DNA of 64,000 bases from the NCBI GenBank assembly GCA_021650895.1, contig CP091278.1, forward strand, positions 3,749,659-3,813,658. Reading direction: 5' to 3'. The position numbers and the translations under genes were made by a program. Shown in pieces: positions 41,501-44,939 of the stretch. This DNA comes from Candidatus Jettenia sp. (GTDB lineage Bacteria > Planctomycetota > Brocadiia > Brocadiales > Brocadiaceae). The notes beneath the pieces were generated by a model. That model ran no database searches. It saw nothing but the letters and a program-made list of their open reading frames with translations, and had not been told where the DNA came from. Numbering within the stretch: position 1 is the first letter of the stretch; every line of letters begins with the position of its first letter.

Positions 41501-42295
41501 TTACTTTGATTTCCTGAGAAAATGCTCGTAAGCAATAATTGCTGCGCCTAACGCTGTAGTAATTTGTGGGTCAGATGGAATATGCAGTTTGACTCCCAAT
41601 TCTTGCTCCAATGCAATCTTCAATCCTTGATTAAAGGCAGGACCTCCATCGAAAAATACAGCTTCTCTGATACCAATTTTCTTAACCATAGCGCCTACCC
41701 TTTTAGCAATTGATTTGTGGATACCCGCAATTATATCAGGTACCTGCCTTCCTTGTGATAATAAGGAAATAACCTCAGACTCGCCAAAAACTGTGCATAA
41801 GCTATTTATGGGTGGTATATCCTCTGCCTTTTGAGATAATGTACCCAATTCATCTAATTCTACTTCAAGGATTCGGCTCATAACCTCCAGAAATCGACCT
41901 GTTCCAGCAGCACATTTATCATTCATCGCAAAATCCAACATTATGCCATTGTTATCTAATGCGATTACTTTACAATCCTGGCCACCAATATTTATAATGG
42001 TTTTTACATTTTCTTTTTCGTGCATGAGCCATTTAGCTGCTCTCGCGTTGGCCGTTATTTCGGTGACAATCTCATTGGCACAGATCATCCTGCGTCCGTA
42101 CCCTGTGGCTACAGTATATTGGACTTCTTCTTCTTTTAGATGATGTTCTTCTAACACATTACTGAGTAACTGTTTTACCGTCCTTTTGCAATTAGACCCC
42201 GTGGAGGAGATCTTTGAGCCAAGGACTGCGTTGTCCCGCATTATCACTATCTTTGTGGTAGTCGAACCGATATCAATTCCTGCGACTATTACCAT
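41501..42295 (-). CDS. 2-hydroxyacyl-CoA dehydratase-type activase (BadF/BadG/BcrA/BcrD ATPase family)
   Basis: ASKHA-fold ATPase with a single iron-sulfur cluster shared by the dimer. The 264-residue protein begins VAGIDIGSTTTKIVIM (phosphate loop), contains NIGGQDCKVIALD, and has the cluster cysteines in MNDKCAAGTGRFLEVM and NSLCTVFGESEVIS. Such proteins inject electrons, driven by ATP, into 2-hydroxyacyl-CoA dehydratases or benzoyl-CoA reductases. No dehydratase subunit gene lies beside it, so it stands alone between a convergent phosphatase gene and divergent typA. Its partner must be elsewhere or may be of another kind. Confidence 0.9.
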   Translation of the reverse strand: MVIVAGIDIGSTTTKIVIMRDNAVLGSKISSTGSNCKRTVKQLLSNVLEEHHLKEEEVQYTVATGYGRRMICANEIVTEITANARAAKWLMHEKENVKTIINIGGQDCKVIALDNNGIMLDFAMNDKCAAGTGRFLEVMSRILEVELDELGTLSQKAEDIPPINSLCTVFGESEVISLLSQGRQVPDIIAGIHKSIAKRVGAMVKKIGIREAVFFDGGPAFNQGLKIALEQELGVKLHIPSDPQITTALGAAIIAYEHFLRKSK

Positions 42296-42494: not shown

Positions 42495-42522
42495 TTGACA
42501 AAAAAGATTTTATTTGTAATAA
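42495..42522 (+). promoter_or_regulatory. Promoter of the typA leader
   Basis: Perfect TTGACA at 42495-42500, a 16-bp spacer and TAATAA at 42517-42522. A transcript starting near 42530 would reach a terminator-like hairpin at 42581-42613 before typA starts at 42671. The remaining 42296-42494 stretch shows nothing I can name. Confidence 0.55.
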
Positions 42523-42580
42523 TTTAAACCGTTTTATATAGCGTAGTTGTAGGCTTAATAATTTACTATGATATTTATAA

Positions 42581-42615
42581 AGCCGCTACGATTTTTCGTT
42601 GCGGCTTTTTTTATT
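42581..42615 (+). terminator. Terminator or attenuator hairpin just before typA
   Basis: An 11-bp stem (42581-42591 with 42596-42606, one mismatch) with a 4-nt T loop is followed by a T-run. It lies 56 bp before the typA ATG and after a good promoter, so either a roughly 85-nt RNA ends here or read-through is controlled. Confidence 0.7.
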
Positions 42616-42670
42616 TATATGCAATTTTACGGATCAGTTGCATTATTATGTGGTATATTTGAGGAATAAC

Positions 42671-44533
42671 ATGACACAGTTAGTAAGAGATGATATACGT
42701 AATGTGGCAATTATTGCCCACGTTGACCATGGCAAGACTACCCTTGTTGATCAATTGCTTAAACAGAGCGGTACATTCCGCGCCAATCAGCAGATACAGA
42801 ATGTAGAGAGAATCATGGATTCTAATGATCTCGAACGTGAGCGGGGTATTACCATTTTAGCAAAGAATACTGCCATTAATTATAAAGGGGTAAAGATTAA
42901 CATTATTGATACTCCCGGACATGCTGATTTCGGCGGAGAAGTGGAGCGCGTTCTTAAGATGGCTGACGGTGTCTTATTGCTGGTAGATGCAGCTGAAGGA
43001 ACTATGCCTCAGACAAGGTTTGTACTTCGTAAAGCACTGAGTTATAATTTAAGGCCCCTTGTGGTGATCAATAAGATTGACAGACCCGATGCCCGTTGTG
43101 TAGAAGTGCTGAATGAGGTCTTTGACCTCTTTGTTGAGCTGAATGCAACTGATGAACAGTTGGATTTTATGGTGCTTTATGCTAGTGGGCGTGAAGGTTT
43201 TGCAAAATTATCTCTGGAAGAAGCTAATAAGGATATTACCCCATTACTTGATGCCATTTTACACTATGTTCCCAAGCCCAATGGTGACCCTAACGGATCA
43301 CTGCAAATGCAAATAACCTCATTAGATTATAATGACTATGTTGGTCGAATTGGTATTGGTAGAATATTCATGGGTAGTATTAATGCAGGTCAGCAAGTTA
43401 CGAGAATTGATAAAGATGGTAAACAAACAGTACATAAAGTGGTAGAACTATTTACCTTTACAGGGCTAGGAAGACAAACTACAAAATCGGCTAGTGCTGG
43501 CGATATCGTTGCTATAACTGGGATTGAGAATGTTGATATTAGTGATACGATTGCATCTCTTGAGAACCCGCAGGCAATGCCAAAAATTAGTATCGATGAA
43601 CCAACGCTCTCCATGATATTTTCTGTCAATAATTCTCCTTTTAGTGGTCGGGATGGTAAATATGTGACTAGCCGAAATTTGAGAGAGAGGCTTTATAGAG
43701 AACTTCGTTCGAATGTAGCTCTTAAGGTGGAAGATACGGAGACACCAGATGCATTCCGGATTTCAGGGCGCGGGCTTTTGCACCTATCTGTATTGATTGA
43801 AAATATGCGACGGGAAGGTTATGAAATGCAGGTTTCAAAGCCTAAGGTAATTTTTAAGGAACTAAAAGGGGAAAAGGCGGAACCTATAGAATATGTTGTT
43901 ATCGATGTGCCGAAAGAATATGAAGGACAAGTTATCTCCTTATTAGGTGCCCGGAAAGGAGAGATGCTTAGTATGGATACCGATAAGGATATAACCCATT
44001 TTGAGTTTAAGGTACCATCCCGTGGTTTAATTGGCCTGAGAAACCGCATCTTAAGTTCTACCCGTGGTGAAGCTGTAATGTACCATAATTTTTATGATTA
44101 CGAGTCTTATAAGGGCGATATTGCTCATCGGATACAAGGTGTGTTAATTTCTATGGCGACAGGTGAGGCAACTACTTATGCTTTAGATGGATTGTTGGAT
44201 AGGGGTATAATGTTCGTAAAGCCAAGCGATCAAGTGTACGAAGGGATGATTGTAGGTGAACATTGTGAGCAGAACGATATTACGGTGAATGTCATCAGGG
44301 CAAAAAAGGCTACTAATATCCGGTGTGCTACTGCTGAAAAAGGTATTAAACTTCCTCCACCCAGAGAATTCTCGTTGGAAATGGCTTTAGAATATATCGA
44401 GGATGATGAGCTCGTAGAGATTACTCCAAAAACCTTTCGATTAAGGAAGAAGCTTCTTACTGAAAACGAGCGTAGGGTTGTTCGCAGACAGCAGACCCTG
44501 GAACCTGTGGAGACTTCTCCAGAGAAGGCATAA
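42671..44533 (+). CDS. typA: Ribosome-associated GTPase TypA/BipA
   Basis: Translational GTPase related to EF-G that acts in ribosome assembly and stress or cold adaptation. The 620-residue protein has G1 [10 protein letters not shown]2 ERERGITI, G3 [15 protein letters not shown] and G4 NKIDRPDAR, then the TypA-type C-terminal domain ([20 protein letters not shown]). The open frame extends to 42599, but the ATG at 42671 directly follows a GAGGAA site and gives the family start ([20 protein letters not shown]). A bidirectional terminator follows. Confidence 0.96.
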
Positions 44534-44556
44534 AGAACGTTATTTCAGGCAATAAA

Positions 44557-44584
44557 AAAGCAGGCTCTAAAGCCTGCTTTTTTT
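44557..44584. terminator. Bidirectional terminator between typA and hup
   Basis: A perfect 10-bp stem (44557-44566 with 44571-44580), loop CTAA, T-run on the right and A-run on the left. It lies between the ends of convergent genes, 24 bp past typA and 27 bp past hup, and can serve both. Confidence 0.88.
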
Positions 44585-44610: not shown

Positions 44611-44886
44611 TTACTTATTTACGATATTTTTAAAATCCTGTCCGGGAGTGAATTTTATCGCTTTGCTTGCTTTGATATTAATTGTAGCGCCTGTTTGTGG
44701 ATTACGGCCTTTTCGCGCTTTTCTTGCTTTTATCGTGAAACTACCAAATCCAATCAGTCTGACTTCTTTATTTTTTTTAACACCAGTTTTTATACCATTT
44801 AAAACAGCATTTACTGCCTTTTCCCCGTTAGCCTTTGACATCTCACATTCCTTTGCCACCATTTCAACTAACTCCTGCTTATTCAT
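44611..44886 (-). CDS. hup: HU-family DNA-binding protein
   Basis: Nucleoid-associated DNA-bending protein, 91 residues. Shows NKQELVEMVAKECEMSKANG, the core LIGFGSFTIKARKARKGRNP and the flexible arm region QTGATINIKASKAIKFTPG. The ATG at 44886 follows AAGGAGG on the minus strand; the frame could start six codons earlier but lacks support. It could be HU or an IHF-like paralogue; the sequence fits HU best. Confidence 0.94.
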   Translation of the reverse strand: MNKQELVEMVAKECEMSKANGEKAVNAVLNGIKTGVKKNKEVRLIGFGSFTIKARKARKGRNPQTGATINIKASKAIKFTPGQDFKNIVNK

Positions 44887-44939
44887 CCAATAACCTCCTT
44901 TCAAAAATAGTTTATATAAGGTACGCTAAATTTGGGGGT

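Follow-up and report, generated by a model that had tools for sequence, protein, structure and literature searches.

A putative cis-acting transcription attenuator with alternative folds upstream of typA in Candidatus Jettenia and other Brocadiaceae

The leaders of ribosomal proteins L10 and L20 lie upstream of a translation-apparatus gene and contain a terminator, and the same is true of the candidate leader of typA described here. It is located in a window of DNA from Candidatus Jettenia (family Brocadiaceae, order Brocadiales, phylum Planctomycetota), by which we mean the whole 64,000-nucleotide stretch that was analyzed, from a genome consisting of a single 3.82-Mb contig. Protein-dependent antitermination is exemplified by the BglG/SacY RAT, a bulged hairpin that overlaps the 5′ arm of a terminator. 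Compared with the RAT, the loop of the corresponding hairpin in the typA leader is variable, ranging from 21 to 39 nt in 19 core sequences. Premature terminators that are conserved before the same gene, and that were found by synteny with the downstream gene, are presented in the text of Naville and Gautheret (2010; PMC2965389) as the rimP-, rpsL- and greA-/rnk-leaders. As these leaders are described there, the typA leader resembles them in that a gene related to ribosomes or transcription carries a conserved intrinsic terminator in its 5′ leader, and the rpsL- and greA-leaders share with it the presence of alternative antiterminators. The rimP-leader, as characterized in the same text, has a GGGc...gCCC stem and lacks a visible antiterminator in most species, whereas the typA leader combines a GCCGC/GCGGC stem with an antiterminator. 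Because the downstream gene is typA rather than rimP-nusA-infB and the stem is GCCGC...GCGGC, the typA leader falls outside the rimP-leader group.

Comparison with known RNA families gave a similar picture. At the Rfam gathering scores, the window contains six tRNAs only, with no leader or riboswitch family. A permissive Rfam scan yielded 42 matches, all below their cut-offs, and many of those on the plus strand extend through the terminator; the L10 (RF00557) leader scored 13.7 bits (cut-off 44) and the L20 (RF00558) leader 18.8 bits (cut-off 58.7). A first-pass annotation of this DNA had noticed no known riboswitch motif in the leader, and the sub-threshold Rfam matches bear this out. Among the matches listed from the open-licence PMC literature, no title names the typA leader, and among those listed for anammox and riboswitch no title names an anammox RNA of this sort. 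Given that there is no Rfam match at cut-off and that typA or bipA is mentioned nowhere in the main text of PMC2965389, the best reading is that the typA leader belongs to a known general kind, the transcription attenuator, and to none of the leader families named in these sources.

Read along the plus strand, the sequence presents a promoter, an intrinsic terminator at 42579-42612 and the ATG of typA at 42671. The gene that would be controlled, typA (bipA; 42671-44533, plus strand), encodes a translational GTPase; the match to NCBIfam TIGR01394 (E 4.8e-275) agrees with the identity assigned in the first pass, and the gene is preceded by a GAGG Shine-Dalgarno sequence at 42661-42664. The predicted promoter (42495-42523, plus strand) is of the sigma-70 type, with the -35 motif TTGACA at 42495-42500, a TG at 42515-42516 and AATAAT at 42518-42523 after 17 nt. 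This is the same place as the previously reported TAATAA after 16 nt. From the position of the promoter, transcription is predicted to start at approximately 42530. A promoter scan of the 6-kb neighborhood found 23 sites where 20.4 were expected, which is not above chance. What raises the promoter in the window above chance is its recurrence in relatives and not the scan itself: sites matching the consensus at 11 or more of 12 positions precede typA at 31 of 33 loci (32 family loci and the outgroup locus L033), or 30 of 32 when only Brocadiaceae are counted. The left neighbor of typA, an acyl-CoA dehydratase activase gene (41501-42295, minus strand; TIGR00241), is transcribed away from typA, and the terminator before typA therefore cannot be that of the activase. 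On the other side, typA is followed by a strong terminator at 44554-44583 and then by an HU/IHF-like gene in convergent orientation (44611-44904, minus strand; family scores under their cut-offs), and this terminator could serve both genes; the arrangement of typA, terminator and convergent gene is similar at some of the relatives' loci.

The terminator reads AAAGCCGC-T-ACGA-TTTT-TCGT-T-GCGGCTTT at 42579-42608, followed by T's to 42612. The hairpin and T-run reported in the first pass are present, but the stem described there as 11 bp is actually 8 plus 4 pairs around one T.T mismatch. Sequence, folding and pair counts define the 5′ arm (42579-42591, plus strand), which is common to the antiterminator described below. 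The 3′ arm, TCGTTGCGGCTTT (42596-42608, plus strand), is defined by sequence and pair counts and includes TCGTTGCGGC, with 96% mean pairwise identity; the T-run, read from the sequence, spans 42606-42612 on the same strand. A simple terminator scan of the neighborhood missed this hairpin, the T.T mismatch being the probable reason. From the positions of promoter and terminator, the leader, or terminated RNA, is predicted to extend from 42530 to 42612 on the plus strand, a length of about 83-88 nt. An 87-nt RNA folds at -22.6 kcal/mol, compared to a shuffle mean of -13.6 (z -3.04), and was equalled by 1 of 200 shuffles. Between the terminator and the ribosome-binding site, folding predicts a small 7-bp hairpin (TGCAATT/AGTTGCA; 42620-42642, plus strand), and a similar GCAA...TTGC pair was seen by eye in the same interval in several relatives.

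Upstream of the terminator we found two strands, absent from the first-pass annotation, that are complementary to its 5′ arm, AAGCC-GCTACG (42580-42590). Strand a, CGTAGT (42542-42547, plus strand), can pair with GCTACG at 42585-42590, and strand b, GGCTT (42552-42556, plus strand), can pair with AAGCC at 42580-42584. Without the terminator's 3′ arm, the MFE structure of the RNA is the antiterminator hairpin, at -13.2 kcal/mol, containing a bulge of 4 nt and a large loop, although this truncated fold is only 1.6 standard deviations better than shuffles. Since antiterminator and terminator use the same strand, they are modeled as mutually exclusive. In growing-chain folding, the antiterminator is the best fold at chain lengths of approximately 60 to 72 nt and gives way to the terminator in longer chains. 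The terminated fold was the more stable in all 17 leaders computed at 37 C, in which holding the start of the 3′ arm unpaired cost 1.2-12.6 kcal/mol relative to the best fold. The terminator is thus the calculated stable end state, and read-through would need a factor, a matter of speed or a kinetic delay. Of the features of an attenuator, the typA leader has, as sequence motifs, a promoter upstream of an intrinsic terminator and, as predicted folds, a mutually exclusive antiterminator. An antiterminator of two blocks, with 9-11 pairs, is predicted in 25 of the 30 family leaders that were folded. Against shuffled leaders, 19 of these 25 antiterminators scored at or below 0.05, and the other 6 above 0.05, up to 0.24.

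The module is widespread in Brocadiaceae. We read 32 family loci (L001-L030, L032 and L050) as well as loci of other families; of the 33 family genomes, one (G015) lies outside the 32 loci, its typA being split over two contigs, and has a CM match before the part encoding the TypA N terminus. A TypA match was obtained in 59 of 59 genomes, some of the matches being to other GTPases only. The first pass had named absence of the hairpin from relatives as one half of the grounds for abandoning its proposal, and this half does not apply: by eye, all 32 family loci show a GCCGC...GCGGC hairpin, in this or a variant form, together with a T-rich tail that is weak in L016 and L050. The rest of the module is less uniform. 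In genus g10 (L029, L030 and L032) and in L050 the hairpin is kept and the antiterminator is absent; in L009 (G017) the terminator hairpin stays while the promoter and the 5′ strands are gone; L027 has no promoter by the criterion used. In L026 (G004) the strands are related and 9 of 11 pairs are possible, with approximately 100 nt inserted in the antiterminator loop, but the best duplex is a different one and no better than shuffles (0.48). Several loci are unusual in other ways. The L026 leader, 187 nt long with the extra stretch of approximately 100 nt, has strong folds of its own. L009 has a promoter-like TTAGCA-18-CATAAT after the terminator. In L007, 223 nt separate the T-run from typA, compared to 34-95 nt at the other measured family loci; the extra stretch is inverted-repeat-like and looks inserted, and promoter, antiterminator and terminator are intact. 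The draft genome G027 carries two slightly different copies of the leader, L102 (C42) and L110 (C234), one of them at a contig end, perhaps reflecting a strain mixture.

With a CM of the core, 28 of the 33 family genomes gave a strong match (E<=2.8e-5), in every case at typA, and there was one further strong match at a contig end (G027:C42). Weaker matches at typA (E 0.015-0.35) were obtained in G008, G011, G016 and G019. All 33 family genomes have some match at E<=1, the only one in G009 being away from typA; matches away from typA above approximately 0.01 look like chance. In the genome of the window itself, a pattern search found no copy besides the typA site, and the next best CM match beyond that site had an E of 1.6. 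Among 392 genomes of the phylum, the CM matched 19, all of them in Brocadiaceae, and the module was not seen by eye at the loci read from families f2, f4 and f5. The outgroup locus L033 (G034, family f3 of the same order) has a promoter and a differently built terminator 19 nt before typA, and a GTGGC strand there has the potential to pair with the GCCGC arm of this terminator (0.21 against shuffles). This arrangement is possibly an older or parallel form.

The strands that would compete for pairing are conserved, and the sequence between them is not. We calculated mean pairwise identity for 30 family leaders with promoter and terminator that were not chosen for their antiterminator strands; L009 and L027, with no promoter by the criterion used, and the outgroup L033 were left out. 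Identity was 68% for strand a, 80% for strand b, 84% for the 5′ arm and 96% for the 3′ arm, compared to 32% ahead of strand a, 47% in each of the bulge and the loop (a gap against a letter was counted as a difference, which lowers the loop figure somewhat) and 43% at 4-fold sites of typA. This contrast suggests that the competing strands are held while the intervening parts drift like silent sites. Because strands a and b lie outside the terminator, their conservation needs an antiterminator or another sequence-specific role. A second alignment, A2, comprised 24 sequences, 19 of which were picked for carrying the strands, and its pairwise identities (90-98% in the strands) were set aside as biased by that selection. 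In A2, 97.0% of antiterminator cells are paired, compared to 26.5-62.7% when slid. Covariation analysis, proposed in the first pass as a check, found the pairing conserved but strict covariation of the antiterminator weak, with one two-sided change in 11 pairs, a level that 71 of 500 shuffles reach. The terminator is 97.6% paired, with two two-sided changes, which 4 of 500 shuffles reach. In these rows, with the selection just described, the same T occupies the terminator mismatch in 24 of 24, and in 23 it pairs with A in the antiterminator. The clearest case of compensation is found in genus g4. In L025 the arm is GCTCTA and its complement TAGAGC occurs upstream, so that a total of 11 pairs can form, interrupted by a 19-nt bulge where 4-6 nt is usual; TAGAGC arose by chance in 106 of 5000 shuffles of the L025 stretch (about 2%). 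In L024 the arm is GCTGTAAC, and an interrupted 10-pair duplex remains. The whole duplexes of L025 and L024 scored 0.05 and 0.07 against shuffles, which is no more than suggestive.

An alternative interpretation is that the region is an independent gene for a trans-acting sRNA, about 70-115 nt in most relatives, and that typA has a promoter of its own. The near-consensus promoter and the terminator, as sequence motifs, would suit such a gene, and 9 of 33 loci (8 from genus g11) have a promoter-like match of at least 9 of 12 positions after the terminator. At the other 24, the window included, no promoter of that quality lies between terminator and ATG, and the gaps of 34 nt in L004 and 19 nt in L033 leave little room for one. 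The linkage to typA also argues against an sRNA gene: the strong CM matches are at typA, bar the one for which a contig end leaves the gene out of view, and the exact terminator pattern, which occurs in 14 stretches of the species-genome collection, precedes typA in 12, the remainder being one at a contig end and one in Pedobacter cryoconitis. The Pedobacter stretch comes just after a different reading frame has ended and resembles a usual 3′ terminator. The upstream neighbors vary, so that the module appears to stay with typA; when the two nearest mechanical ORFs of at least 90 codons within 1.5 kb were compared, some of which may not be genes, 11 loci grouped with the activase of the window and the remainder fell into small or single groups. 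The loop and bulge, where a seed could be placed, are near the silent-site level of identity. On this evidence an independent sRNA is unlikely. The absence of a conserved sensor domain, with bulge and loop unconserved, and the reduction to promoter and terminator only in genus g10 would suit a constitutive damper, in which a strong promoter and a leaky terminator fix the level of typA and the strands merely tune leakiness without responding to a signal. Conservation of the three exclusive strands well above silent sites fits a switch better, as does the relocated complement in L025, even if each would allow a fixed leak, and we regard a damper as rather improbable.

Translation-coupled attenuation by a leader peptide would require an ORF in the leader, and in the window one of 33 codons (ATG at 42568) covers the terminator and stops shortly before typA; ORFs also run through the terminator in some other leaders, such as L006 and L007 (with a Shine-Dalgarno-like sequence) and L020. 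The ORF in the window, however, has no Shine-Dalgarno sequence, the starts and ends of these ORFs vary, the part they have in common is only what the conserved terminator encodes, and 6 of 31 scanned leaders lack any ATG or Shine-Dalgarno-preceded start. We rejected this mechanism, which we judge extremely improbable, since no ORF is conserved across the family in the 31 leaders scanned; the first pass had likewise seen no leader peptide. A small-molecule riboswitch would need the bulged antiterminator hairpin to serve as a very small aptamer. Competition between a conserved bulged hairpin and a terminator does resemble the layout of an expression platform, but the bulge and loop, at 47% identity each, are not conserved, and with no Rfam match at gathering score such a riboswitch is very unlikely.

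We therefore favor a cis-acting, Rho-independent transcription attenuator of typA with alternative folds, which we consider the probable nature of the region on the basis of sequence comparison; promoter use, termination and regulation are what we infer from the same comparison. The first pass had offered a leader with controlled read-through into typA as one of two alternatives, and conservation, the exclusive antiterminator and the linkage to typA lend comparative support to it. The other, an RNA of roughly 85 nt, would be compatible as the terminated product of the attenuator. In the mechanism we propose, RNA polymerase would initiate near 42530, and in the first approximately 60 nt to emerge, CGTAGT and GGCTT would pair with GCTACG and AAGCC to form the antiterminator, with its short bulge and variable loop. 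If the antiterminator persisted, the terminator would be blocked and typA transcribed. If it opened, the 5′ arm would pair with TCGTTGCGGCTTT, transcription would stop at the T-run and an RNA of approximately 83-88 nt would be released. Formation of both folds, a regulated balance between them and an effect on the level of TypA would all be expected under this scheme.

Candidate helpers of read-through would include NusA, a cold-shock protein, and polymerase speed or temperature. Seven matches to cold-shock domain proteins are encoded, which makes these proteins possible players, their presence being no evidence in itself. Deletion of bipA in E. coli is reported in PMC7682190 to cause cold-sensitive growth and altered ribosome assembly, and BipA/TypA is described there as widely conserved. 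Given the cold-sensitive deletion and the encoded cold-shock proteins, temperature is a fair candidate, nothing more. The calculated energies move with temperature as they would for any helices and point to no thermosensor in particular. A search for ANTAR antiterminator proteins gave no match, and nothing follows from this because the control also matched nowhere.

We speculate, tentatively, that the leader could represent an undescribed class of RNA switch, specific to the anammox bacteria of the Brocadiaceae, in which the three competing strands would adjust the amount of the ribosome-assembly GTPase TypA by sensing the state of ribosome assembly, temperature or a dedicated RNA-binding protein. 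A conserved attenuator would count as a regulatory RNA of anammox bacteria, and would give a directly testable handle on how the level of TypA is set.
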